A DNA stretch of 64,000 nt from Tetrapyrgos nigripes (lineage: Eukaryota; Basidiomycota; Agaricomycetes; Agaricales; Campanellaceae): contig JAACJM010000110.1 of the NCBI GenBank assembly GCA_013368315.1, forward strand, positions 1 through 64,000, given 5' to 3'. The translations under genes and the position numbers were made by a program. This document shows positions 12,091 through 54,600 of the stretch, piece after piece. The notes below the pieces were generated by a model, which was given only the letters and a program-made list of their open reading frames with translations, was not told the DNA's origin and ran no database searches. Positions within the stretch are counted from its first letter, which is position 1, and the number at the start of each line of letters is the position of its first letter.

Positions 12091-14661
12091 CTCGCGGATT
12101 GGATGATCCGCCGATGAGGCCTCGGATAAGGATGGTGGACCCAACCGAAGGATACCATCCTGTACACTCGTCCATCGGAATGGGTCAAGCAGCTTTAAAA
12201 TCTTTGAAAACTTGCACACAAGTTCTTTAGCCGAGACACAACTCTGCCCGGTGAAACACCGGGATGTATGCCATGGTATATTGACACCTTACATCATCAT
12301 GATATCAGATCATTTCCGACTTTCCCCGCTCTGTCTTCCCCTCCACCCTCCAAAAATACTGTCTATCCCTTTCCGTCGAGCGGATGATTTTCTCCGTGTG
12401 ACCTGAACCAGGCTCAAGAACCAGCTCAGATCTATATCTGACTCGGAAGTCAAGGTACATGGGTCATGCCTTGATGATATCAACCAATGTACAGCTTTGC
12501 AAGGGTAGAGCATCCACTCCCAAACTCCGCAGTATTTGTTCACTTTTTTTCGCCAGCCAGACCAGCACCAATTTTAACGTCCTTGGCCATGCCGCACAAC
12601 ATTGCCATAGTAAGTCTCTCCTTCACCTTTCAGGTCATGTCTGACGCCTCTCACAGGTTGGTATATCCGTAGAGATTCCGGGTGGAGACACGTACAACAA
12701 AAACCTCGATCATGCCTCGTTTTTCGAGTTCCTGCTTAAAAGCGGCCAATCCTACACGAATATACCTAACGATCGTTTCAACATTGATGCGTACGTCCTA
12801 CGATATTATGTACCCTTGAAGTTTGACCGTCTCATTTCACCTAATAGATGGCACGGACCAAACGTTGGTAAAATTTCGACGCAGAAAGGTTCATTCCTGA
12901 AAGACATCGAGCTCTTTGACAATGTAGAATTTGGAGTCTCACTCAAGGATGCTCGTGCAATGGCCCCAGCCACACGAAAAGTTCTTGAGCATTCATTCCT
13001 AGCTCTTTACGATTCTGGAATTGACTATCGTGCTCAAAATGTTGGATGTCCCAACGCAGGCAGCACTTATGATATCCTTACGGTTGCTGAGCCAGTGAGT
13101 TGTTCAACCTTTGTTTCTATTCCTGCTTTTGAGCCATTCTTTCTGAAGGATCATTTCGACGCGGAAGGATCATTTGCAGGTGCACCTGCCATGATGTCCA
13201 ACCGTGTTTCTTATCATTTGGATCTCAGAGGGCCTTCCATCCCAAGTGATACCGCTTGCAGTTCTACTTGCACGGCAATGCACATCGCTATCAACTCTAT
13301 AATATGTGGAGACTGTGATGCAGCTGTCGTAGCTGGCTGCCAGCTTGCCCACCAGTAGGAAGCTCGATCTTCTCAACAGCCATTCACTTAGCCCATCTCC
13401 CCAGATTCACAGACTGGTTCAATTACAGTGAAGGACATGTACTCTCGAAGGATGGAAAATGCAAGCCTTTTGACGCTTCAGCCGACGGGTATGCTGAACT
13501 CTACCCTGAGTCTATTGTACTGACATTCCACACAGGTTCTCCCGAGGTGAAGCTGTCGCAGCTATCGTTCTTAAACCTCTTCAGGATGCTGTCAGAGACG
13601 GAGACCATGTATATGCAGTGGTAAGCTGTCAATAAGCACTTGTACAACCTGGTAATATATTGAGTACTAATCCTTTTTGTTCTAGGTTCAGGGGACGGCG
13701 GTCAATGCAGCAGGCTCTCTTGGTCCACCGAATGCACCTGTCGCTGAAGCACAGCAAGATGCCATGTTGAAAGCCTTTCATCGATCTAAGCGTTCCCCTC
13801 AAGAGGTAGATTACGTTGAATGTCACGCAACAGGTAAATCATTCACCTTCTTTCAATCAACGTTTCTAAATAGGTTTTACGCAGGCACTGCAAAAGGCGA
13901 TCCCACTGAAGTCAACTGGGTTGGACGTCAGTACGGAAGAAATGATCAGCTCACGATTGGCAGCGTGAAGGGGAACGTAGGGTGAGTCTGAAGATACCAT
14001 AACCCGTTTTATTCTGTTTACTGATTTCTGCCATCACAGACATACCGAGATATGTTCGTTCCTTGTCTCCCTATCCAAAGTCCTCTCAATGTTTGAACAC
14101 GGTGTTATTCCGCCGAACGTCAATCTGTCTACGCTTAACCCCGCTATCGATTGGGAAGCCTACAAGCTTCAGGTCCCTCTAACCATCAGCCCTTTGTCAT
14201 GCCGTTCTGGAACCACCTCTCTCGTCGGAATGGCTAGCTCAGGCATCGGAGGCTCCAATGCGCATGTCGTCCTTGAAAGTCCTCCTATCCATAGCACTGT
14301 GGACACCTGTTATGATGTTTCGAAACCTGCCCTGTTTGTGGCAGGAGGTCTCTCCCCGCGATCCGCAAACTCCATCATGACATCTGCCTTACAAGCGGCT
14401 GCGAAGAACCCCAAAGTGATTGGAGATCTAGCAGTCCATCTCGGTCGACGCGCACGTCAAATGACTTGGAGAACGTTCACTCTTGTCAGCAAGGAACAAG
14501 CCTTATCTGTGGAGTTCCCTTCACCGGTGTTAGCTCCACAGGCTCGGCCTAAAGTCGTCTTTGTTTTTTCGGGACAAGGGCCACAATATAGCGATAGTGA
14601 GCGATTATAGCTTGATTTTTAGCACTATGCTAATGAAACCTTGACAGTGGGCCGCGAACTG

Positions 14662-15855
14662 TTACGAGGCCTCTTAAAGGCCGAGTTAACTTAGGTCGAC
14701 TTTTGCAATCTTCCCACGCCTGCAGATTTATATTGCGGTCTCTACGACAACCGAATTGCGGTCTGGACCGGGTCCAAGGACTATGTAATGACGTCGACAA
14801 CGACGACGTCATGCCAGCGTCATGCTTCATGGGATATACGGTGTGTCCACGGCTTTCTCTCCGGAAGTATAGTCATACTATCTGCTGTTTGCCTGCACTC
14901 ACCGCCCTACTTCTTCAGCCTCGACGCCCTCGTGATTCTTGCCTCTCCACCGTCCATTTAATTTACCTTAGAAATCGTTTTCATGGTTTCAAACTCCGAG
15001 TCCCACCCCTATTAGCTGGCGCTTGTCAAGCGCTCATTCGGAGTCATCTGGCATGATGGTCGAGAATCTCATGACGTCGTAAATGGTTTTCTTGGACCAG
15101 CTGTAACCAATGCGTCCTTGTCTTCTCCCCGTTCCTCACTGCGTCCAGGTCCCTTCACCAGTGTTCTGCTCATGATTCCTGCACTTTTCAACCTACACAA
15201 TACCAGGGTTGGTCATAGACTAACTAATACCTGTCAGTTCAAACCAAAGTCTGGACTCTGTCAATGCTGGTCTATACTGCGGTTGACAGATAACTGAGGA
15301 AAGATTCCTACAGAGTGCTTGCTGCCCAGAATGGCAAGGCTGGAAATGGCCAACTGCGGCCAGATGCCATCAGGCAACGGCATGTTCCAGCAAGGCCTGA
15401 TCTACTTACTGATTGACCAGTGTCAATTGGCTAAACCCAAAATATATAGTCCAGACCATAGTCAATAGTTGAGCACTGACTCTCTCTCTTTGCTTTGCCC
15501 TCCTTCTCCCCATCTCGTATGCATGTTGCTTGAGCCAGACCCAGTTTTACCAATGTTCCCTCCAGTTGGTTGCCAGTGGGTAATTGTAGACTATATACCT
15601 GAGGGAAGCCAAAATGTGTCTCGAAAAATATTACCACACAATGATTGTGCACAGATAAGTGCAGTCTGTTTAAACTGCAATCAGTGTTCACTGCTCTTCA
15701 TCCACTGTTATGCTTAATACCATACTTATTTTTCTGATAATACTCTGACAGTAGCAATTACATACTTAATGTAAGAATATTGTGATATTAGTAGACTTTA
15801 TTGAGGGAAAGAGGCCTCGTAATTTGCCATGCAAAGCAGTGGCCCCTTTCCCCAG
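14662..15855 (+). mobile_element. Insertion 1 in the AT domain: asymmetric-end element, about 1.19 kb
   Basis: Splits the AT between GREL (before 14662) and FATFPVF (after 15855). Left end (A end) TTACGAGGCCTC; right end (B end, read inward on the minus strand) TGGGGAAAGGGGCCACTG, with the TTACGAGGCC repeat lying 32 bp inside the terminus. The A end aligns by eye for about 60-100 bp with the right end of the 20656-21304 insertion (GAGTTAACTTAGG, CACGCCTGCA), and the B end with its left end. No target duplication beyond one ambiguous G. No coding capacity, so it is non-autonomous. Family not recognised. Confidence 0.8.
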
Positions 15856-18017
15856 TTTGCTACCTTCCCCGTATTCCGAGACAGTGTTATTCAGTCAGAT
15901 CGCATCTTCAAAAGGATCGTCGGGAAGTCCTTGATATACGATTACGGACTCTTCGGCCCACACCGATCATCCATTCCTCTTCCAGATCCATGGCCCGCAG
16001 ACCTTACCCTGCCCTCGTTGGCAGTATTCCAAGTGGCAATGTTTGAGCTTCTCATTCACGTCGGAGTTGAACCCGACATGGTGATGGGTCACTCTGCCGG
16101 GGAGACTACGTTGTTATATGGCTCTGGTGGTGGATCCAGAGAGATGGTCATCGAACTCGCCATTGCTCGTGGTATTGCCTTCCGTTCTATCGAGGAAGCT
16201 AGTGGTACCATGGCTGCATTGTCGTGCACTGCTGCAGATGCTTCACGGCTTATTCGACTTGCGCACTGCGACGGTGTGGATATTGCTTGCTATAATTCTT
16301 CGTCAGCAGTTGCGATCTCCGGGAACGGGAAAGAAATTGACCAGGTCTTATCGTTCGCAGCAGCCGAGGGTATCACGGCGACCAAGTTGAAGACCAAGGT
16401 CCCTGTCCATTCGGCCATGATGGAGCTCTGTCGTGTCCAATACCAGTCCCTCGTTGGTGACGTCTTCGCCCAATACAATGGGGCTCGGAAACCACAAATA
16501 CCGACAATATCCACACTGACCGGGAAATCTCTCTTTTCTGCCTTTGACGCAAAGTATTTCTGGGACAACGCTCGGTCAGCAGTCAGGTTCACGGATGCGA
16601 TGGAAACTGCTACACGCATGATTCCCAATTCGGTGTTCATCGAAATTTCTCCACATCCTGTGCTCTCTTCGTACATTCAGGACCAAACCGCACTTCCGCA
16701 TCAAGTTCTTTCTTGTGCGTGTCGTCCTCGTAAAGAGCAAGGTCCTGCAGAGCTCTCTGCGTTCTTGCAGATGCTCGGTAACTTGACCATTTATGGCTAC
16801 AACGCAGTTCATTTCCATCGAGTGCATCCTTCTCAGCAAAGCAAAAAGTCCAGGGATAGGAGCTCATTCATGGAATATCCTTTTGCTCGCAAGGCCTTTC
16901 CACTTTATTCCGACATGCCATCAATGCAGAAACAGCTAGAGCCTCATAATGGACCTCTCAATCACAAGTACTTAAGGATCAATCAAGATACGCATCCATC
17001 CCTTGCAGAACACATCATTCGAGGAGAACCAATAATGCCGGCAGGAGGGTTCATTGAGATGGTATGTTGTCTGTTTAATCTCATCATGTTCTAGCGCTTA
17101 ACTCTGGCTTAGGTATTTGAGTTCGGTGCAACTTGCTTGATCAATGTCGAATTTCGATCCATTCTTTCCATAGCTGCTGAGAAGCCTATTCCAGTGCAGG
17201 TAGCCTTGGACGGATGCCATTGGACTGTCGCGTCTTCCGGGGTAAGAAGCTCATCCAAGTACTCTGTACGTACTTCTATCTAATTATCAGTGACATATAT
17301 CTTCAGAATCTGCACGCAGAGGGTTATTTGACGTACGACCATCCCTCTCGTTTGCCGAATTTGGATCTACCGAGTATTCAGCGACGCTGTGAAGCACATC
17401 ATTCGATTTGTAAGTGGACTCCTCATTCTTAGCCAGCTGAGCTCATAATGAACATGCCTTTCCCTCAATTAGCTATGTATCCCGCTCTCGAATACGCGTT
17501 AAATTATGGGCCTTCGTATAAGCGTGTTATTGAAGTCCATCTCAATCAAGAAGAGGCTCTTGTGGTGATGAAAGGCCTGACTGAAGATATTTTCAAGTAA
17601 GTACTACACACAAGAGTAGTAATCGGAGCTGACTTTCATTAGTGATGATGACTACATCCTCCATCCCGTGGTTTTGGACGCCTCTCTGCATGTTCTATGC
17701 TATTCGCAATTCCATGCAAATCTGGACGCCAACGTATACTATCTGCCTGACCGGATAGGACGAGTGATACTTCATCATCCATCCAAGGCAAAATATTTCC
17801 CCTCCACGCGTTTATTCGTACACCACAAGATTGTAGGCTGGTTGCCTGGTATGTGCGAGATTGTCAGTTATCTACATATCTCGTAACTGATACGTTTAAA
17901 TGGCGACAGATCGAATTATCTCGGACGTTGCTATTGCAGATGAAGATGGCGTGATTTTGTGTTCACTCGAGGGGTTAGAAGTTGCAGTGCATTTCATGCA
18001 TCATGTTTCCACACACA

Positions 18018-18682: not shown

Positions 18683-20655
18683 GTGACACCAGATCGTTTC
18701 TACGACGTTGTCAATCAACCTCACTCCATCATCAACGTACTTTCATGTGATCCATCGGACCTGCTGAGTGATTCGCTCGAGGCATCGTTGAACAAAAGAT
18801 TATCTCAAGTACAAGTGAGCCCGCGTTTCACAATTATCTCTGATTCGGGACTGACAACTCTTGAGATCTTGAACTTAGCAACCGACATTCTATCCAAATC
18901 TGATTTCTCGCATGCCTCATTGAGATTCCTTCAAGAATATCTTTGCTGGCTGAGTTCTCTGAAGCAGTTCGTCAACATATTCATTGTCGGTCTTGAAGGT
19001 GACGATTTCATTCTCCATCGCTAGTACGTTGTTAGACTAATAGTGCATTTGCTTCAGACTCAACGGCTGGGCTGAGTTCTGACCTTACTCAGCTATTGTC
19101 ACTGGACCTAGGAGCTACCATCGCCTATTATCTTTACAACAGCTCCCAGCCCCTAGACTGCAAATGCACGTGGGTGCATGGCCGATACGGTGCAGTCGAC
19201 TTCCTTCAGCCACTTCAGCCTCAAGGGTTACATCCGCATTCTTTTGACATGGTGGTGATATTTGCGGAGTCCGGCCAATTTTCCATGGACTCTGAATCCG
19301 AGTCGATCTTCGCATTTTCACGCCAGCTGCTTTCTCCGGGTGGTTGTGTATTTCTCCTGACGCTGTCTGGACCACAAATGGCTTCTCCCTCCTACCCCAG
19401 CCCAGAAACACTGGACACACTCCAGAGATCTGCCGAAGAAGCGGGTTTCATGAGTCTTTACCGAGACATTCACGACTTCGCGGAAGGTCAATCATCCTTC
19501 TTTCTGGCGAGGTTCCGACCATCTTTGAACGACGCCGTGTTCTTAACCATGCCAGGTGCCGCAGACCCACTTATTTATACCTATCATGAAGGTCGTGAAA
19601 TCGATCTGCAATGGTTTTTGAGTGGCCTGGATCAGACCAAAGCATTGGACATCTGGATCGCTGCTCTCTGTGGCCGTGAAGGAGATCAGGCATCTGGACT
19701 TATTCGAGTCCTTCACCTAGAGTATCCAGCATGGCGACTTAGACTCGCTGTATTCCCATCGTCGTTCAGCAAGAAAAGAAGAGCTGATTTCATTCGCACG
19801 CTTCCCGTATACTTGGAAGGCGAATTGGAGATCATCGTCACAGAGTCAGGGGGTGTGCTTGTCCCTCGAGTCATTTCCTGCCCCTCAGGAAAGTCACGAG
19901 CTGTTCATGCTGACGCAATTCCTCCCATTCCATCTTCTAAATTGATTGCAGTGGTGAAAATCGTTGCTGCTGTCTCCTTTGGTAACGGATATGGGTTTGT
20001 GGGAAAGGTGGATGGTGGGAATGCGGACTACCAAGGCTGTTTAGTGGGTGGTATAACCGAGAGTATCTCAGGCAGTTGGATCACAGTAGAAGTGGCGCAT
20101 CTTTTCTTGCTGCATGAAGTCTATAAAGTGTTCCTTGAGTCAATCCGGGCTTTAGACACTGGGTTGGCAGTAGCAGCTCTTGCTCCCTCGTTATCCGCAT
20201 TCAATCAACCGACCTGCCTTGATGGGGTTCGCGTACTTCTGACTCACAAAAGTTCGTCGATAGGTCGTGTGGTCAGCATGATCTACAAGGCCAGAGGAGC
20301 CTGCGTAGTTGAGGTTGAAGCAGATTTGAACATTTTCAGCCTGTCCTCGCTTCGTAAAGAACCATTCGACTTGGTCGTATCAGGGCACACAAATTCCCAA
20401 TTCCGTCAAATATCCCAAATCTTACTGCGGAAAAAGTCTGGCCGACTCTTCTTATGGGACGCCAAAGATAGTGGTCTTTGTAGTATCACTCAGCAAGAAC
20501 CGTACACTATCCGTGATGCCTTGTCATCAGCCTTCCCACTCCTGCATGGTACTTCACTGCACGAGGAAATTGCGACACACACCGAAATCGACGTAGAGCA
20601 TCACTTCACGAGTATTAACACAACGCAACAACTGTTTGATCCCGACAAAACATAC

Positions 20656-21304
20656 TGGGGAAAGATGCCACTGCTTCGCATGGCAAGTTACGAGGCCCAT
20701 AGTAGGGTTGCAGCGTTAGCCATATTAGGAATATCATACTGTGGTTATTCAGTAGAGATTCACTGTAAGAACAAGATAAGTAATCATGCAATCAATGCCT
20801 ATTCGTACTTAGAACCCCAGTGTTTATATTGCTCGGCTTGTACAACCGAATAAAGGCAGGGCACGTTGCCGTTTAGCTGCTGTCAAGCCGGGCAACCGAG
20901 TTAATTAAATCGTGGCGTTTTCTGATGGCCTACACACTAAAACCTCGCTATATTCTTGAACCGCGTTGTAGCTGATCATGATTGCAAAAACAGGGCTGAC
21001 CAATTGACGGACGGCGCGTACTTGTATGCTTGTGTATTGGCTACATAAATACATACATATCGCGGGGTGAAGGCGAAAGGACTTAGGAAAATCCGACGGG
21101 ACTTGGGTTATGTCATTGTTTGTTCATGGTTGACGACAGCTTGAGTCGGATCGAAAAGCCGATGCGTCGTGAGTCTAGACCGATCATTCTTGGATCATTC
21201 GGTTGTCGGCATCATAGACTGGCCAATAGAAATTGCAGGCGTGGAAAAGTTGCGATTGAATTGCAAAGGTCGCCTAAGTTAACTCAGCCTAAAGGCCTCG
21301 TAAC
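20656..21304 (-). mobile_element. Insertion 3 in the KR domain: same family as insertion 1, opposite orientation
   Basis: The PKS frame reads DPDKTY up to 20655 and resumes directly after 21304 with YLV...IGNLG, the KR cofactor loop, so the boundaries are exact to one base. Left end TGGGGAAAGATGCCACTGC (B end), right end the complement of GTTACGAGGCCTTTAGGC (A end). It shares both ends with insertion 1 but has a different, shorter interior and inverse orientation. A single ambiguous C is the only possible target duplication. Non-coding. Confidence 0.8.
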
Positions 21305-21811: not shown

Positions 21812-23642
21812 GAGTTCCCTCATCAACGCCACCCTGTGACGCGGCAATTTTGTAAAATACTAGGTTGTTCCATAGATAGCTTCATATAGAAAATGACGGT
21901 TATTCCTATGCTCACAACCGACTCTTTTTTATAAAAGCCCTGCTAAATAACCTAGGCCAAGACAGAGACTCATATGACTGGTGCTCTGGGCTGGATGGTA
22001 TGGACCAAGGTCCATCGCTGCCTGTCCGTCCTCAAGGCTTCCAAACTTGGCTTTGGCCTCGCAATCAGCTTGGACGGCCACTTTACAAAACGAGTATCTC
22101 AACGCATCGCGTTGAACCGTTACATCATACTGCAGGCGGGTTTGCGGTTGGGCACATATTTGGGTAGCACACAAATAGACCTATCATTACTTTGTACATA
22201 TGATTGGTTAATAGATTGAAAAAACTCCACGCCGCCAACATGCGTGCCGTCTGCTACAGTGGTACCAGGTTGTGGCGGGGTGGGGCTCATCACAGGTAGA
22301 TGTTGTACGCTGGCCCGGCTCTATACGTCGGAACGAAAAAGTCAGCCAGACGGGAAAAGACAAACAACAAATGAAAGACGCACCATCCCATGACCAGTAT
22401 GCCCCGCACACACCCATAGTCCCGGTTTGCCCGGTCTGGGTCTGATGAGGAGAAGGCCATCAGAGGTCTACACGGTAAAAAAAGTCAGTATAAAAAGCCA
22501 AGAGAAAGCAACTCGAAGGGAAGTAAAAAACAAAACAGAGAAGAAATAAAAAGAAACACTCACAAACCCTACAATCCCCCTCAGTCTCCATTAATGATCC
22601 ACTCCCCGTTGCAGTCCTGCCTTTACAGTGTGTTCAGTTCCCTATAAAAAGGTGTCATGTAAATGGAGGGTTGAAGGGACAACGTTACTCACCACTCTCC
22701 TTTGCTCCTTCATAACCCATTTCCTCACTGCATCTGTAACAGTCTTAAACCCACTCAACCCATTATTAATCCGGTATATTCCCTGGGTGGTACCCATTTA
22801 ATCAACTCCTTCTGTCTGTACTTCCTCCAAACATGACATTCCATCAGACGGGCGGCGGCGGCGAAGGGCTGATTGAAAAGAGAGCATTATTTGAGACAAA
22901 TATGCCATGGTTATTCGGAACTGGAGAGTGCAGGTGTGGAAGTATGAGTTACGGAAGTATGAGACACGTAGTACTACTAGTAGGACGCACCGTAAAAGTT
23001 GACGGCTATGTATGGCCAGGCGTTGCAAATGAGGCAGTATTTTCAAGGAGAGAGGTCCTCTATACATGTGGGTGTCCGTCATCATCCTTTGTGAAAGCAG
23101 AAGAAGAGCGGAGGAGATACGCTGGCGGTTGGACGATGATGACGCGTCATTGGAAACGCCGAATTACAGTCGAATTAAAGTCGAACTCTTGATTCCCACG
23201 CCTTTCAAGAGCGCTTAGCACGCCATCTCGGTCTTTGTTTCGATTGGTGTTGCATCGACAGAGCGTTTTATACCTCGGAGAAGTTCGGGATAGGCTTGGG
23301 TTATGTATGAAAACTCCCTGAATATTTTTTGTTATTATAATTTGAGTGATACACAATATACTTGCATGTTGACACAAACTCTCATAAAATGGTCAATCTG
23401 AGACGTTCATCTTGGATTAGAGGTATCATCTAGTACTACAGAAATCCTCAAAAAATAGAAAAAATGTCGTGAATAGCATATCAATCAGTAATACCAGGTA
23501 TCCAGCTATATTACAGCCATTTGCAATTGGCAGAACCTTAAAAGCACCTGGGATGCGAAAACTTCAAAAAAGCGCATCATCCCAAAGCTCAAACATATAC
23601 TGCACTTGCTAAACCCCATGCCATATTAGTCTTGTGGTTATC
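21812..23642. other. No recognisable gene (region after the PKS break)
   Basis: An ACP would be expected here if the PKS were full length, but no DSL phosphopantetheine motif is visible on the plus strand. Short frames on both strands (for example 21929-22174 minus, 22833-23192 plus) have no motif. It may contain unrecognised debris. Confidence 0.45.
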
Positions 23643-23681
23643 TATAGGCGTGGGCGCTAGCGGAAAGTTATGACATAATCA
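23643..23681 (+). repeat. Left 39-bp terminal inverted repeat
   Basis: Contains two short palindromes, CGCTAGCG and TTATGACATAA, and ends CATAATCA. One base differs from the right copy (CGG versus CGA after GCTAG). Confidence 0.92.
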
Positions 23682-23815
23682 TGCACGCTCCCACGCCCTT
23701 TATCCATTTGTGGTCAGTGTGTCTTATCTCTCTACCATCATCTCGAGCGTCTCCTTGGATGTATCTATCGTTCTTTCTATTCAAGAGACTCTCTGTATAG
23801 ATTTCCTCACTTAAT

Positions 23816-26022
23816 ATGTCTCTCAAACCTTCATGGACCGATCCATCCGGCAAAGAAACCCTCAAACTTGTGGTGTCCCGCTGTATACCTCAATGGACCA
23901 ATGGATTGCACGAGTACCAGGTTGGACCTATCTCCATGGTCCTTAATAAGGAACATGTTCTTCTGTTCACGGGTACCGGCTCTGGGAAAGCTGCGCTTTT
24001 TTTTGTACCACTCATAGTCCACCAAGAACTCAATCAATACCCCGACAACTATCCGCCTCTTCCCGCACAAAGCAACGCCATCGCTATCGTGGTTACACCG
24101 ACTAAAGGCTTGGCCAATAGTATTGTGAGTGTGTCTATTGTCCTTTCGCTTACTATGTTTGCTGATTATGCCCTGAGATATACGACATTGAACGATTTGG
24201 TCTGCGTGGCCTCTCATACTGCCACGAGACTATTACTGAATACAGAACCAAGAAGAAGCAAGACCTCATACAGCTTATCTGCGACTGTCGTTCTTGGGAT
24301 CTTATTTGCGTTGACCCCAAGCATCTAGCTAGCCCGGAATGGCGAAGAATCATTCAAAATGAGAAGTTCGTGCAACACCTGGTTCTCTTTGCTATTGACG
24401 AAGCACATCTCATCCGGAGGTGGTCCCCTAATTTCCGGCCTGCTTTTGGTGATATTGGTGCTGTTGCTCGAGGCTTTCTTCCTAAGAATATACCCATCAT
24501 CGCTCTCACTGCGACATGTTCGCCAGGTCGAGATACTGCTGAATTGTGTCAATCTCTCGGACTTGTCAGCAATGATTATCATCTCATTTGGCATTCCAAT
24601 GAACGAGAAAACATGCATATCATCCTCGACGTCACCAAGCACACCTCTGGTATCCCTAAATATAGCCAACTTCTCAAATATCTGCATAGCGGGCGCAAAG
24701 TCCTTATCCATGTGCAAACAATCCCTACTGCCTATGACATTTACGAATTCCTTTTTAATCACCTTCCTGATGGCGTTAGTCCTCTTCAACGCATGCGGAT
24801 GTACCATGCCCTGTGTACAGATGCTTACAACAGGGAAACATTCCGTCTCATGGATTCTGATCCCATGCTACAGGTTATCATAGCAACGATCGGATTTCTG
24901 GCGGGTATAAACTGTATGCAGCTTCTGGATAGCATATTTTGGAAATTTCCGTCATCCATTGATGATTTCGTTCAGGGAGGAGGAAGGGGTGGTCGTGATC
25001 CCAATGTGATGTGCAGAAGTATTGCAATCATTTCTCCCAATGAATTGAAGGCTGCTCAGGAATTCATCCAACGTACGTTGCCATCGTGCTTGATCTGTGA
25101 TCTCACTGATCTTTGATTAGCGTCTACTGCTATTACATGTGTTCCGAAAGCGAAAAAGAAGCCAACGTCAACGAGTACAGATCTGCCTATGGAAGAAGGC
25201 AAGGCACTTTTTATCATTGAGCCTCACTGTCACACGGCATGCGTGAATCGAAACTATCAGAACCCGCCTCTTGAAACTTCTGTTCTTGATTGTAAGGAGG
25301 CTGGCCGCAAAGTTTATTGCAAACTTTGCGCTACTCGCTATAACATCTCCTACACTTTTGATACACCCCTGTCTCAACATTCTCCTCCTTCATGGCTTCC
25401 ACTCTTGGTCAAATCTTCAAAATCAAAGCAAAAATGGCAGTCCGCAACATACCTCGGAAAAAAGGAGCGAGAGAGCATGCGAATATGGCTTATTGATTTT
25501 CAGAAACTTGTTTGGAGTCAGTTCCATTTGATGGACTCCAGTTTCTACAACGATCCTGTCCAGCGCTTCTTTTCTGCTGCAATCATTAACGAAATTCTCG
25601 ATAAATTCCTGATCATTGATTCCCTCGACTCTCTTATCAGCCTTCTTTATCGTCATTCTTGGAAGTTTATTGAGCAAAAGTCCGACTCATTATTTCGCCT
25701 TCTTACCGATTTTCAATCATTTATTCGAACGGAACGTGAAGAACTCAAAACAAAGCGATCTGTCAAGACGACGAGTAAGCAGAGAATGCCTCGGGAGCAG
25801 GGGAGGTCTAGGGCGGTCATATCCGAGTTGGAAGAGGCAGAATCAGAGGAGATAGAGTCCGATGATAATGAGGCTGGTGACGATCCCACTCCCGCAGTAC
25901 CACCTAAACCAAATGTACAACCTTCTCGCCCTCGTCCATGTCCCACTCGCAAATCCCAGCCCAATACAGTTGCTGACTGGTCAGCCACATATGGCCCTCA
26001 ACGAAGAAAACGGAATTGGTAA
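23816..26022 (+). CDS. RecQ-like DEAH-box helicase of the TIR element
   Basis: Superfamily 2 helicase, ATP-dependent DNA unwinding expected. Exons 23816-24124, 24178-25072 and 25121-26022 join in frame with GT-AG introns and give 701 residues without a stop. Motifs in order: Walker A GTGSGKA (about 52-58, Ala where Ser/Thr is usual), VVTPTKGL (Ia), Walker B IDEAH (about 176-180), LTATCS (III, about 214), VLIHVQT (IV), YHALC, IATIGFLAGIN (V) and QGGGRGGRD (VI, about 369; first Arg of QRxGRxGRD replaced by Gly). After the core comes a Cys/His-bearing stretch (HCHTAC, YCKLC, about 438-475), possibly zinc-binding, then a Lys-rich and acidic tail. The ATP-site and motif VI changes could reduce activity. 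It is convergent with the DUF6589-like gene and was probably mobilised with it. Telomere-linked RecQ genes are the nearest alternative. Confidence 0.85.
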
Positions 26023-26054
26023 GTATTTTTGCTTATTACTTAAAAACTGTTCAT

Positions 26055-29000
26055 TTACTCATAACTATCATCAGAACTAGAACCTTCCTCATCGCCGCTA
26101 TTTGGTATGTCTGCACTCCCTTCATTGCTCCCATCATCTATCTCACTCAGAATTTTTCCACGCTCACTGTCTGACCGCAAATCCTCCTCTTCATACAGTG
26201 ATATTTCGTCGTCAGAATGTCCACTTGATTCGGACTCGCATTTGGAAGATTGAGAAAGTTGAGGGCTATCAGAGCGGTCTAGCAGGTTGGTATTTGAGAG
26301 TGTAGGTGTAGAGACTGCATCAAATGTAGGGACATCGTCAATTGGAGGTGTATGGAGTTGTATCTTTTCAGCTTCAATAGCTGCAATAAATTTGGCTCTG
26401 GCAGATGTCTTCTTGATGAATGAATTGAGTTTGCCTTCGTTTTCTAGGCGATCGTATCCAACACTGAGCCGGGGTAAGTCCTCCCTGATCTGAATAAATG
26501 AATTTCGGATGTTTGGAATTCCATTTGGAGGACACGAAGCTCAGGCTGAGTGGAAGGCGATGTGTGAGAATTAGATCGTTGCTTGAGATTGAGTGCGGAG
26601 GCCCAGACCCTTCCTGAATCAATGAAATTATTGACGTTGGGCGCAATAATATCACAATAGTATGGCGAATCAAAATCACCCCCAGACTTGTCAACCATAC
26701 TTTCAAGTTTTCCGTTATGGTGTTCTTGCATAATATCTTTTTCTTGACAGCGTAGACCGAACTTGACGAGATAATTATTGAGGATCGCCGTACGCATCTC
26801 AGGAGATGACTCGTCCTCCAAAAGGCAGTGCAACTCTAGAAGATACGAGACATATTGTTGATGTGTGGATCCGCAAAACATGAAGATCCAAATCTACGAC
26901 GTCGAGTAAACATCCATAGAGAGAATAAGAAATGAATACACCTACTGTAAGCTGCTGAATCACTGTACCAACATCACCATCCTTGATGGCATACTCCAGA
27001 AGTAACCAAGAACCGAACTGCATCTTGAATAGAATCGAGTTGGTAAGAGTGCGGTCACCATCAAAATTCTCCGGGTCTTTTGACTTCGCAGGGACATTAT
27101 AGGATAGTTGCTCCTCCGAAGTATCCAATAACGATGATGAACTCCCTGATGTCCCAGTCTTAACCCTCAGTTCTTTTTCCCTGAGCTCCGTCTGGCATTG
27201 CAAAGAAAGGACTCGTTTGTAACCACTGATGCAAACATAGGTCTTAACGAGGATACTGGCTTGAGAGAGGAGTCGATCCAGTGAGGGTAGTTCATTCTTC
27301 TCAGAGAGGGCTTGAAAATGTGAATGCAAATCATCAACTCCGAGAATAATCCTTGAGAAATAGGTGGTATACGTATCAAGCGATGAGATTAATAAAGAAC
27401 GTATAATAATTACTTACCGCCAACAATCAAGGATCTGAGCTATCCAAATGATCTCCATGCAACGCAGAGTAGGATAGTGATCACATTGCTTCAGATTAGC
27501 TGGCCGCTTGAAAGAGCATAGACAGTAGAGCCGGGATAGGGAAGAGGGATCCACGCATGTAGATGGGCCAAAGTGCTCTTGAGCAATCGCTTTCATTGCC
27601 TTGTCCTTCGCATGCCAGGTTTCAGGGGTAGCAAAGGTGTTCCTAAGTGTGGCTTGATCGTTTTCTGGAGAGGTGGTGATGAGATATTTTTGTAGATTGA
27701 GAAATGTTGCAAAGGTGGCACCATCACCAGATATCCACTTCAATGTTGACTTATCTGCTCCTTCACCTGTCCAACCAATTTGATCCGCAAAATCTTGAGT
27801 GCACCGATGTAACCCATGAATCTCCACCTCCCTTTCCGAGTTGGTGCCCAATGGTTGTATTGTTGACTGTCGGTTCTCAGGTATACGATGAATTGAAATA
27901 GGATGTGAGTGAAAGCAAGATGAGATGAGTTCGGAGTAGGAGGCCAACTGTGGGATATAGTCGACAAGGGTTTTGACGATGTATAAGGACTGGGAGTCGT
28001 GATGATTTGACCAATTGACATAGTCCCACAGTTTGTCAATTGTCAACGTTGAACGGAGATTCTCGGATACTCGTGAGAGGTAAGCCTGGAGGTCCCACGT
28101 GCCTGGTGGACAGTCTTCTAGATCAATTGCTGTTGCTGCCATACCAACTTTCATCACTGTCTTGAGCAAAAGGCCACCTCCCTCGTGGATAGATGAGTTT
28201 CGTTGGACATTATCGAGAACATAAGTTTTTGCGACTTCATTTCTTTCTGTTGCCTCAATAGTTGACTGGCGCATACGTTCTCGGTCACGTTCGGTCAAGT
28301 TCTGAATCAATAAACAGGTAGTGTTATCACTTGAGGCAAGTCCCATACGACAAAGCCATCGCTTGATATCAGTGTGGATTTGACATGAAAACAATTGGAC
28401 GCCGAGGTGAATGGGAAGATAGCTGTTGATGAAGCGGCTATGCCCTACGACTAGTGCATTGATAGCGACAAGAATACGCTACATAGAACAATGGGAATGA
28501 GGCATAAGTATAGCGGAGATAATGGTCACTCACAATATCTGGAGGCCTATACTTTCGGGGCAGAGCAACACCATTCTTACGAGGACTTGCTAAATATTCA
28601 CAGAGTCCATGAAGGAACAGTGCACGACGTTTGAATGTTGCAACAGTGCATGCAGGAGTAAATGAGTTGATGTCATCCCAAGTGACCTCACGGAGAGGCA
28701 TACGAGCAGGCTGATCTTCAGGGAATTCAATCGGATCCGAGTTTGTGGTCAGAGTCGAGATGTCTTGATATGCCTGAGCTGCACAGAGCTGCGCAGCGTA
28801 AGACGCAATAGCTGGACGTGCATAAGGTATGTCTGCTGGGTCTCCATCAAGTCGGAAAGCCTTGGAGCATTCTAATTTCGGAGCCTGGGCCTGATGCGTT
28901 GGTTGGCTACTTGGGTGATGATATATCTTGCAGATGATGTGAATAACCTTGACGGAAGAGTCTCCCTGGAGTAAACGACGAACAACATCCCGGTGATATT

Positions 29001-29634
29001 GGTGGCGAGGATCTTGATCGCGTTTGATACCCTTATGATAGAATAGAAGTCGTAGAAATTCCCCGAGACTGCCAAAGTCGTTGCAGATGCCGATAAGATG
29101 CTCGTTAACTTTTTCCAGGTCATCAAGAAGCTTTTGACGTGGAGACCGTTTACGCTTTCGAATACGCATAGTAGGATGATCTGGAATATTCTCTTTCGCC
29201 TTGAGAGAAGCCCATAAAGATGAGTCGGGTGAAGCGAGGGAAGGTGAGTCTAAACTCATGTCAGACTGCGCAGTATTGGAACTGGTAAAGAGTAATATAG
29301 GGCTTTTGAGGACAGAGTTTGATGGCCATGTGGGAGAAAGTGATCCTACGAGAGTGTCTGGTGTACCTGGCTCAGGTACTGCAGAGCTTCCGGGATTACT
29401 TCGGCTGTCGTCAGCGTGAGAAGGGATGGAAAGATGGGGATTCAGGGTGGCGTTGACAGTGTTCTGACTGTCAGGAAGATGATTGGTATCTAATCGAGCT
29501 AGGAAAGGTGTATCTGGAGCTGTTTGAAGCTGGTAATGAGACGTGCCAGGAGGAGGAGCAGGAAGAGTAGGGACATCTGCATTTGTAAGGTATTTAAGAC
29601 GGGGTTTTTTGCGCTTTGACGTGTCTTGTGACAT
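26055..29634 (-). CDS. Large DUF6589-like protein of the TIR element, one frameshift
   Basis: Exons 29634-28534, 28478-27418, 27351-26946 and 26893-26055; introns of 55, 66 and 52 bp with GT-AG ends, all phases consistent. Total about 1,135 residues. The N-terminal 190 residues are low-complexity with a basic patch (RIRKRKRSPRQK). The core carries KWISGDGATF (about 613-622), TWHAKDKAM, HFGPS, DPSSLSRL and ANLKQCDHYPT, ending ILDCWR (about 721), then FKMQFG and LFRSGR. I recognise this pattern from agaricomycete proteins called DUF6589; function is not established. The frame slips by one base around 26463-26478 (a run of four G), after which a Lys-rich helix and an acidic, Ser-rich tail continue to the stop at 26055. 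As the only large gene besides the helicase, it is the candidate recombinase or transposase (inference). Confidence 0.8.
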
Positions 29635-29747
29635 ATCGACACAGTATATGGGTAGTAGAAAGCCCTAGGAGACTCTACGAGGCCAAAATGTGTGGTACAA
29701 GGCCGTTGAGGATGAGAGAGGTAGGAAAGGGGCTCGTGTGAACCTTG

Positions 29748-29786
29748 TGATTATGTCATAACTTTTCGCTAGCGCCCACGCCTATA
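29748..29786 (-). repeat. Right 39-bp terminal inverted repeat
   Basis: Complementary copy of 23643-23681, with 38 of 39 bases identical. The internal palindromes CGCTAGCG and TTATGACATAA are conserved. Confidence 0.92.
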
Positions 29787-32468
29787 CATTGGTACCAGAC
29801 TACTATGTACACACGATGAGTGTCAAAGTACATACGTCAGTCTGGATATTCGAGACTAATGCCATATATTGACACTTGACACAAAGACTTGCAGCTGAGC
29901 TCAAATGCATATTCAGTTCTTATTTTTGGGCTCTGGCTGTGATCTTAGCAGTTGAGGTCAGATGTAGAGAAAAAGGCTTGCCAAATTAATGTCGAACACT
30001 GCATAGGTATGAGCCACTTGGCGCTACTTATTATCCAGAAAGCAATTCTAAAGCAATTATACGCGTACCAAACCTCCCGCTAAACGGTACAGCATGATTA
30101 CCGCTTTCAGCCACAATTTACCGCCAAATTACTGCCAATTCACTGCGGATTGACATTGGGGGTCCAATGATCCCTCAAAAGTAATAATATGCTTTTGATT
30201 TCAATAAAAGGATTTAAGACAACCGAATCCATCAATTGCGCTCATGTATAGATGTGCACCAAGTTGTCCAGAGCGGTAGAGGACGGGGGGTCGCGGCAAT
30301 TCCAACCTGCCCAATCAGGTTTGATGTAATCATTCTTAAAAGGTAGCTTGATCAAGGGAGCATATAATGTGTTCAGCATGCATATGCATCCATTTGGACG
30401 AACGTGAATAGAGCCGAACCCGATTGATGTGGGGATCAATGCTCAACAAATATCTACATAGAGTCTAGAGAAGAGCATTTCCCATTGACATTCACCTATG
30501 TACTACTACAAGCTAATATGTAGTGCGATGCCTATTTACGACTGTGGGCGCAATATACTGATACAATGGATGCAATGGATGGGTGCCCAAACAGGGGCAG
30601 GAAATATTCCCAGGGTGGGGTGGAACGACCTAGTGTGCACCTAACTTCCTGTTGATATCCTGGGACTATACTATACGCCTAGTACTTAAAAATTCATTAT
30701 TCCTTATTCGCTAGTATATTTTCATTTCTCTTGACTCCTGCTACACTCATACATGTATCACGCCTGGTACATGTTTTATACCAATTCCGTTAGTCTATCT
30801 CATACTCATTTCTTCTTATACGTCTTTCTCTTACAAATTTTAGACTCAAAATCCCTCATTTTCTTACTATTACTGACTTGGCGCGTAGTACATAAATACC
30901 TAGTACTTACATGCACACAATATACCAAGTTATCCACTACCAACTTCACTCTTCCTAGCCTAAGCCAATCCAGAAAGCCTCTCATTGTTCCCATCTTCCT
31001 ATTGTTGTAAGGGGAAATAAACCAATAAGAAAACTCCCCGAAACCGAAGTAAGTTCAAGAAAATAATCTAGTGGCTGAAAATGGTGCTGATGTATCCACT
31101 CTAGGGCAGACAGACCAAAGATAATTGAAACAGTGGATATGAAAGAGACAAGAGGGTGAGTAGAGGCTTTCTGGGAGAGAGCTGGGAGGTTGGGATTTGG
31201 GTAGGATTCGACTTAGGCTGGGACTGGTGAAGTTGGAATTTGGTAACTTGGTATTTTCGATGTAAGTACTAGTATTTATACAAAAGTGAGGCTCAAGACC
31301 CGAGTTGATAAATAGCAAGTAAATGAAAGATATTGAGGTTCAAACACATAAGAGACAGACACAGAGGAGATGATAAGTATAAAAGGTGTGCTCAGAAAAT
31401 AGGTATAAAACTTGTTCCAGCTGTGATACATGTACGCGTTTGATGGAGGATAGGATAAATAAATTATAGACGAGAATAAGGGATAATGAAATAAGGAAGT
31501 AAATGGAAAAGAGCCAAGATGGTGTAAGGTACATAGAAGATAAGAAATAAGAGAAAAAGAAATAGGGGTTGAAGCGTACTCATGACTTTGATTTCCAAGC
31601 TTCCTACACGTCTAGGGGCTAGCTGCAATACCAGAAATGGTATTACACTATCTCATTGCTGTTACAGATATTTCTTGGTTGTTACTGCCTAGAAAGTGCC
31701 ACCGTCAACCTCTAGACAATTTCTCAGACTTACCTGGGTTTGAGGAGTTTTCTATTTAGGTTTATATCTTCCGTGTCAGCGCTGTCCGGCCTCGTACGAG
31801 CCACGCCTCAGCGCTGGCCCACACCCCCTTCATATATACCTGTGGCACTTGCAGACATCTATCTTATAGATTTGTGTGGGTAGGTAGATAAATGTTATCT
31901 GAGTTCATGAATACTGACATCAAGCTAGAATTGCCATATATTCAAGATTCAAGACTCTATTGATACTTTATTCCCAAAAAAGCGAAAATGGTCTCTTTTT
32001 AGACCATATAAATAGGGATAATTCATGCCATCAGTTATGACACATACTCATACTGTGTATTCCATCATTTAGTAACAGTACAAAGACAAATAACCATCCA
32101 TAATATCTAGGAGATGCTCCATGTGTATCAGGTAGCTCAAAGTCAAATTAGGTTCCACTAATGAGTGCATCTAGCACTTAAGGCTATATCTAAGCATGTC
32201 TTTCATTGAGAATGACCAAACTCCCCATAATCAAAGTATTATGGTATTGAAGTATGTAGAATCTCTTAGAATGCGAAGAAAGTAGCCGAAGGATATATAT
32301 ATGTCCAATGAAGGTGGAAATCAGTGGTATTCTCGCTTTTTTGAGAATAAACTAGGAATTAAGTCTTGGAATTTGGATATATAACAATTCTGACTTCATA
32401 TTTGTGTTCTAGATATTGAATGACACTTATTTGCCTAGCCAAAGTATTTTATAAAGCAGCCATATGCA
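29787..32468. other. No recognisable gene
   Basis: AT-rich DNA with frames below 90 codons, several of low complexity (30753-31010, 31055-31534). No domain, terminal repeat or RNA gene was recognised. Confidence 0.5.
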
Positions 32469-51645: not shown

Positions 51646-54600
51646 ATGCCACGACCCGTGAAAGCCAGCAAGAAACGTGTTCGCAAGGAAACCATGGTGA
51701 ACTGTAGGCACTGTGGTGTGCGTGTAACCCAACGGACAGAACGCCGACACCTAAAAGCCCTCAAGAGACCCAAAATACCCCTTCCGATATTCAACACTTC
51801 TACTAGTGGTGCTGAAACTGACAACGAGGACATGGACGTTGACAATCTGGATCCTCCTGACGCTCCTGGACCAGAGCTTGATGCACCTGCTCTTACAGAG
51901 GTGGACGCTGCAAATATTTTCGAAGCTTTTGCCGGAGTAGAAACCTTTGACGTCGACTTCGAGATGGAAGCACCTCCATCTCGTCATCCATCTCCAGATC
52001 CTGTGCCTCTTCAGCGGTCCAAGCGTATTTGGGTGGAAGATGTTCCTGAAGATGAGGATGAGGATGAGGATGCGGAGACTCGGAATGAGGAGGATGGAAT
52101 ACTGGATGAGGAGCATGGCGTAGATTGGAATGCCGAAATTGATGAAGAGGGGTTAGAGGCTCTTACGCTGGAGGACCTCATATGGGGTGATGTTGAAGCT
52201 GAGCTGTCCGAGTTTGGTAAGTCAGTTGTAAACGTTGCTCTTTGTCTATGTCTGACTTTTATTTAGCACAGGAGCTCACCGATGATGAAGTGGCCCTGCT
52301 TCGTCATTACGCACTCAAAGTTGAAACATACATGACTTTGAGTGTGTTCGAAGCCCTTCCTTTCGCTTTTCGCTCGGAGAATATCCAATCATGGAAGGTC
52401 ACCAAATCTCGTGCTGCCTTCCTCGCTCGCTTCAAGCCGGTCCCCTATGACTGTTGCATCAACTCTTGTTGTTGCTTTGTTGGTCCACATGCCGAAGACT
52501 CTCGTTGCGAGTACTGCAATGAGCCGCGATTCCGTCCAAGCAGCAAACAGCCTCGAAAAAGGTTTTGCTACATCCCTCTTATTCCTCGACTCGTCTCCTT
52601 TTTCCGCAGTCCTTCCATGATGAAGGAGATGAAGTACCGAGCCAACTACTCTCCTGATCCTGACAAAATTAACGACATATACAACTGCAAGTTATACCAG
52701 ACACTCTGCGAGAAGAACATAACTGTTGGCACCACTACTTTCCCCCACAAATTCTTCGAATTCGAGCATGACATTGCGCTTGGGCTATCAACGGACGGCT
52801 TTGCCCCTTGGCGTCGGCGAACCAAAACTTGTTGGCCATTACTCGTCTACAACTACAATCTCCCACCGGAGCTCCGTAATCATGTCGAGAACATTCTTTG
52901 TGTAGGCGTCATTCCCGGGCCGAACAAACCCAAGGACCCAGACTCGTTCTCATGGCCACTGGTTGAGGAGTTGATGAAGCTGGAGCGAGGTGTACGTGCA
53001 TTTGATACGTTCGCCAACGTTCTCTTTGCGCTACATGCGTACCTTATCGTGCTGTTTGGTGATATCCCAGCAATGTCATTTTTGGCTCGCTTTGTCGGCC
53101 ACAACGGTTTTCGCCCTTGTCGCATCTGCAACATCACCGGTATTGCAGCACCTGGAGGTCGCACATTGTATGTACCTCTAGATCGTTCTCGACATCCTGC
53201 TGTGCAAGCGGATGACTCCAAAATCAAGAAATACGACCCTTTCAATCTTCCTCTCCGTACAGATGCGGAAATCAAATCACAGGCAGAAGAAGTCGATATG
53301 GCACCGAACGCTACCCAGTCCAAACGACTTGCCACCCAGTATGGTATCAAAGGCTCTTCCGTCTTTCATAACCTGTCATCACTCATCTTTCCACATTGCA
53401 TACCCTATGAGGTCATGCACCTCTGGTTCGAGAATATCCTACAGATACTCGTCAACTTGTGGACAGGTTCTTTCAAGGATTTGGATGAAGGAACAGGGTG
53501 TTATGAGCTCCCGAAAAATATATGGGAGGCGATTGGTGCTGCTACTGCTGTGTGTGGTGACTTCATTCCATCTGCATTCGGTCAGAGACCTGTCGACATT
53601 GCCTCGGACGCTGGCAAGAAAGCGAGTACTGCTGACTCGTGGTCTTTCTGGCTGATGCATCTAGGGCCAGTTCTTCTCCACAACCACTTCAAGAAACGAG
53701 TATATTATGAACACTTTGTCAAGTTCGCGAAGATTGTTATCTTTTGCATGGACTTTGAATACGAACGCGCACAATTACCAGCACTGCGGGCTAGTATAGC
53801 TTCTTGGGTAGAAGAATTCGAAAAGTATGTTGATCTGTTGTTCTGATTGATATCTCTGACACTTTCGTTGACATTAAACCTTGTTCGCAGACTATACTAT
53901 CAATACAATCCTGACCGCATGAGTGCCTGCCCCCTGACGATACATGGTTTCTTACACATACCTGATCAGATCGAGTGGATTGGCCCCACATGGACACACT
54001 GGTCATATCCGACTGAACGCTATTGCAATCGTATAGGACCAGCCATCAAGAGCCGACGTTATCCTTGGGCATGCATCGACGGATATGTTACCGATTATGC
54101 AGTGCTCTCGGTTCTTATCATGAACTATGATTTGAAAGAGACACTCCGTATGCGAGGAGAGCTTGGAGGCAGGACTCAATTAACTGATGATAAATGTAAG
54201 TCGTTGACGAGTATTCCATGAATCCATGTATTATATTTACATTTTTTGCAGACAAGACTTGCTGCTTGGTAGCCCCGCAGCAGCCATCTACTTCAATTTC
54301 GAACACGTTACATGAAAAGATCATGATCCATTTCGTTACTCGCTTCGGCAAGACAGCTACTGGTGACGATGTCACTCTGGCCCTCATTCGTCAATACTAC
54401 AAGCCAGACCGAGTCTCACAGTGGGCCAAAGTGCGTAGACTAGGTGGAGGTGATGACATGAAGGCTTCTGCCATGGATCTCCACACAGAGGACCATCGAA
54501 ATGCGACATATATACGGGTGAGGCATCCTTACTGTTGTCTGTGGAACAAAAATTGATCTTCTCATAGTATGATGCTCTAGTTGATATCAATTCACGGAAT

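Follow-up and report, generated by a model that had tools for sequence, protein, structure and literature searches.

Helicase-encoding DNA transposons have been described before. The AcademH lineage (Kojima 2020, as cited in PMC10045372) encodes a helicase and produces 9- or 10-bp target duplications; it is reported at low copy number from Basidiomycota, Ascomycota and Mucoromycota (PMC10799480), and putative non-autonomous Academ elements have been reported in Marasmius oreades (PMC8290104), which belongs to the same suborder (Marasmiineae) as Tetrapyrgos nigripes. KolobokH, a second class that combines a transposase with a RecQ helicase, is reported only from fungi, with 4-bp TTAA duplications and 5'-RR..YY-3' termini given for Kolobok (PMC9587614). 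We analyzed a 64,000-nucleotide stretch of T. nigripes (the window: assembly GCA_013368315.1, contig JAACJM010000110.1, positions 1 to 64,000, forward strand), which contains a 6,232-bp element pairing a RecQ-like helicase gene with a gene for a DUF6589 (domain of unknown function) protein. We consider it very probably a full-length AcademH-type DNA transposon, with the DUF6589 protein as its Asp-Asp-Glu (DDE) transposase. A first-pass annotation of the same DNA had recognized no described element with this architecture, a view that the reports on AcademH and KolobokH overturn: on those descriptions, the AcademH kind of element is already known.

The element spans positions 23627..29858 (no strand assigned), with termini TAGTCTTG...CGAGACTA that begin and end in TAGTCT...AGACTA, and a perfect 9-bp duplication, ATGCCATAT, lies on either side (23618..23626 and 29859..29867). 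The left terminus occupies 23627..23634 on the + strand (TAGTCTTG) and the right terminus 29851..29858 on the − strand (TAGTCTCG, read inward). The first-pass annotation had placed the ends at a pair of near-identical 39-bp inverted repeats; these are real (23643..23681 on + and 29748..29786 on −, 38/39 identical, with a next best inverted repeat of 21 nt at 81% within the 8.2 kb searched) but are subterminal, set in by 16 bp from the left end and by 72 bp from the right. Reading outward from the subterminal repeats of relatives elsewhere in the genome, we found that sequence conservation between copies continues beyond them. Comparison of copies and of empty sites thus ruled out the 39-bp repeats as termini, and likewise a TATA or TA target duplication, a candidate prompted by a TATA at the repeat edge.

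Both flanks of the element (22627-23626 on the left; from 29856 on the right) have matches of 95–98% identity at seven other places each. At five of these paralogous sites (C33, C53, C74, C34 and C189) the element is missing, and the matches to its two flanks share exactly 9 bases, with uninterrupted junctions, as expected for an insertion with these coordinates, which fixes the boundaries and length of the element. At the other two, C21 and C512, about 1.2 kb separates the flanks: in these two copies of the host repeat, other sequence (C21:544258-545460 and its counterpart in C512) lies within a few bases of the point that corresponds to the element's insertion. That host repeat extends over 21830-23626 and 29859-30686 of the window and is present at seven other places at 95–98% identity; a second repeat, of 650 bp (20653-21304) and with 16 matches over nearly its full length, lies to the left, so that this region holds nested insertions.

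Target duplications were compared among eight copies in which both ends could be located, leaving out C44 (left terminus not found) and the unpaired ends at C123, C53, C246 and C86. The duplication is 9/9 in six copies (C107, C300, C22, C18, C127 and C318), 8/9 in C78 and 2/9 in C24, and the best value among 56 mismatched combinations of ends was 6/9. Across the whole genome the unit has diverged relatives: its sole full-length match is itself, identity drops to 66–71% in the seven DNA matches that follow in length, and short matches to its ends reach 93%. Copies with both ends include C107 (6,232 bp), C300 (6,205 bp), C24 (6,602 bp), C318 (10,682 bp, with stops in its exons), C22 (2,659 bp) and C18 (2,736 bp), together with two 507-bp non-autonomous copies, C127:3355-3861 (L057) and C78:91664-92170 (L039), that have the same ends and 9-bp duplications of 9/9 and 8/9. 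The C24 copy (L009, C24:409305-415906) is near-complete and retains both ends between unrelated flanks, so that its ends look as if they came from different insertion events. The first-pass annotation had proposed a mobile element and a search for further copies, empty sites and a target duplication; the copies, the five paralogous empty sites and the 9-bp duplication bear the proposal out. For an excision assay, the element offers precisely defined ends and duplications, empty sites and the 507-bp derivatives.

Within these boundaries the interval is filled by two convergent multi-exon genes, as the first-pass annotation had noted. The helicase gene (23816..26022, + strand; exons 23816-24124, 24178-25072 and 25121-26022) encodes 701 amino acids with TGTGSGK, DEAH, TAT and QGGGRGGR motifs. 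Its translation is 100% identical to a deposited 701-residue T. nigripes protein, P0092 (650 residues searched), which in turn matches the window exons at 99–100% over residues 1-701. Pfam reports a DEAD match (1.8e-16), and the best sequence match in the PDB is the ATP-dependent DNA helicase 1oyw (4.1e-13), followed by RecQ, WRN and BLM; judged by these sequence matches, the protein is a RecQ-like SF2 helicase. The second gene (26444..29634, − strand) has four exons (29634-28534, 28478-27418, 27351-26946 and 26893-26444) and 1005 codons in a splicing model that is our own and unsupported by any deposited protein. A model with one more intron, at the end of exon 4, was discarded once other copies had been compared, and the C-terminal tail seen in those copies sits in another frame here.

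The modeled protein carries the DUF6589 domain (PF20231) at residues 508-966 (1e-84). For a close homologue, P0002, the predicted structure adopts an RNase H-like transposase fold (Foldseek E 0.022), aligning best with the Hermes (hAT) and P-element transposases at 7–8% sequence identity. Candidate catalytic residues are D456 (28212..28214), D619 (27723..27725) and E913 (26723..26725), all on the − strand, and this putative D-D-E triad is conserved. The fold comparison had been suggested in the first-pass annotation, along with the idea of a recombinase or transposase that works with a helicase; on the predicted fold, the candidate triad and the recurrent pairing described below, that idea is probably right, and the DUF6589 protein is probably an RNase H-like DDE transposase acting alongside the helicase. 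DUF6589 went unmentioned in the literature searched, where PF20231 led to one unrelated paper, and the link to transposition is possibly new. With this reading DUF6589, which has 108 exon-level matches in this genome, turns from a domain of unknown function into a testable transposase.

The pairing of the two genes recurs across genera and within the genome. Twenty close helicase homologues (P0092-P0111) include three from T. nigripes, and at least 6 of the remaining 17 appear to share a contig with a DUF6589 match, a lower bound because both searches scored a limited number of candidates. Five of these pairs have consecutive gene numbers (one in Dendrothele, three in Marasmius sp. AFHP31 and one in Paramarasmius), and the sixth, in Mycena polygramma, is known from an apparent shared contig only. 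In T. nigripes itself, the DUF6589 matches fall into 54 loci and 74 helicase matches into 43; 12 loci of each kind lie within 6 kb of one of the other, all in convergent orientation. Outside these pairs, 42 DUF6589 loci remain; ten of them lie no more than 8 kb from a Helicase_C match (3 convergent, 7 divergent) versus 0.8 expected, and for the remaining 32 no such match was found. This comparison used 18 of 104 Helicase_C matches, namely those sharing a contig with an unpaired DUF6589 locus and one further match. At L065 (C37:23000-32000) and six similar loci, DUF6589 stands beside a divergent rather than convergent and more distant helicase. A search of L065 for these termini and for the subterminal motif described below found neither paired TAGTCT ends nor the motif; such divergent loci may represent a second lineage.

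Both genes were kept intact by selection during the divergence of the copies. Ratios of nonsynonymous to synonymous differences per site (pN/pS) between copies, calculated after dropping aligned pieces under 80 codons, were 0.24–0.27 for one helicase exon (three comparisons) and 0.11–0.38 in five comparisons of two DUF6589 exons; the top value belongs to C318, a copy with three stops in the stretch compared. Purifying selection is evident in exons of both genes, and because synonymous sites are close to saturation, the true ratios are lower.

The two ends share a subterminal part and differ in what lies outside it. A motif, TTATGACATAATC, which includes the near-palindrome TTATGNCATAA, occurs at 23668..23680 (+) and 29749..29761 (−); it has 55 exact matches in the 98.5-Mb genome versus 2 for its reversed control, and the left-terminal TAGTCT begins 41 nt ahead of it in 8/8 copies measured. 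The right end carries in addition an imperfect palindrome (29795..29845, −), a putative hairpin between the terminus and the subterminal repeat, for which left ends have no room, their terminus being only 41 nt from the motif. From 23 loci, 22 right ends were read (L014 yielded none), representing 21 places, since L017 and L048 are the same, and 16 distinct variable parts. The hairpin arms vary between copies yet remain complementary. After one of the 16 was dropped for a variable part that was too short, pairing each of 15 distinct sequences with its own arm gave a total energy lower than all 10,000 arm permutations, which is not a strict probability because the sequences are related and the ends were chosen partly by their outer arm. 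Mean energies were −9.0 kcal/mol for own arms versus −6.5 kcal/mol for crossed pairs, and own arms ranked first in 2/15 sequences (ranks 1 to 8), as expected for related sequences. The set is biased toward hairpin-bearing ends, as the search string held the first bases of the outer arm and truncated ends, such as L029, L036 and L037, were excluded; 14 right ends aligned with MAFFT did not enter the pair counts, two length classes being out of register. The conserved and apparently covarying right-end hairpin is possibly new.

Several known systems share part of this organization. Helitrons have a hairpin near one end only and, like this element, carry a helicase, but inverted repeats and a target duplication set the element apart from them; that duplication, and the lack of any Rep/HUH or Helitron domain found by Pfam in the two element proteins, rule Helitrons out. 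AcademX, a sister lineage with an XPG nuclease beside the transposase and 3–4-bp duplications, was rejected because none of ten XPG_I matches shares a contig with a DUF6589 match and the duplication here is 9 bp. P elements usually make 8-bp duplications, and neither they nor hAT elements are known to carry a helicase. With the hAT transposase Hermes and the P-element transposase, the DUF6589 protein has in common the predicted RNase H-like fold and a large, predominantly helical segment that separates the second candidate catalytic residue from the third. hAT itself was set aside on its target duplications, reported as usually 8 bp (5, 6 or 7 in named sub-lineages; PMC12730594), versus 9 bp here. 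That the closest folds are those of hAT and the P element, and that the literature searched is silent on DUF6589, would suit a separate superfamily, in which a DUF6589 DDE transposase not homologous to Academ had come to resemble AcademH by convergence. We regard this as unlikely, given that helicase partner, 9-bp duplication and basidiomycete host all coincide with the AcademH reports and that putative Academ derivatives are reported within the same suborder. Between AcademH and the element, likewise a helicase-encoding DNA transposon of the 9–10-bp duplication class at low copy in a basidiomycete, no difference emerged among the features compared, all of which come from the descriptions in citing papers.

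The remaining readings fare worse. MULEs (Mutator-like elements) make duplications of about 9 bp, and one that had captured a helicase would combine these features; Pfam at E up to 0.1, however, lists DUF6589 alone for the protein and no MULE domain, and a single capture would not explain why other genera, and other copies in this genome, show the same association, leaving this reading very improbable. KolobokH also joins a DDE transposase (predicted in our case) to a RecQ helicase in fungi, but its reported TTAA duplications and RR..YY termini contrast with the 9-bp duplications of varied sequence and TA...TA termini of the element, and exclude it for practical purposes; moreover, the helicase here is a separate, convergent gene and does not lie downstream of the transposase domain. 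That these are two ordinary host genes with repeats flanking them by chance is scarcely conceivable: empty sites, target duplications and dispersed copies contradict it, and we found nothing in its support.

For an AcademH-type element, we propose that the near-palindromic subterminal motif would serve as the binding site of the DUF6589 transposase, which would cleave the DNA at the terminal TAGTCT sequences and integrate the element through a staggered cut that yields the 9-bp duplication; this enzyme would also mobilize the 507-bp non-autonomous copies in trans. We propose a role in the same pathway for the helicase, which would most likely open or remodel the element ends, of which the right one bears a hairpin, or else clear the strand-transfer product so that repair can follow. 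Support from sequence comprises the boundaries, the 9-bp duplication, the empty sites, the gene pairing, purifying selection and the conserved candidate triad, and the fold is a prediction. More speculatively, and in our judgment rather doubtfully, DUF6589 might constitute a large, unrecognized family of helicase-partnered DDE transposases in mushrooms, in which the RecQ-like helicase recognizes or opens an asymmetric hairpin of conserved structure, present at one end only, and the two ends are processed differently instead of by symmetric cut-and-paste. With such an element in hand, the role of a RecQ-type helicase in transposition by a DDE enzyme becomes testable.

Elsewhere in the window, a 605-residue open frame at 19036-20853 had no Pfam match at E up to 0.01, and pieces of a polyketide synthase (ketoacyl synthase, its C-terminal extension, acyltransferase and the start of a dehydratase) lie at 12645-17091 on the + strand. 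An open reading frame at 52221-53843 encodes a Transposase_21 (tnp2) domain (E 8.4e-22) and marks another DNA transposon.
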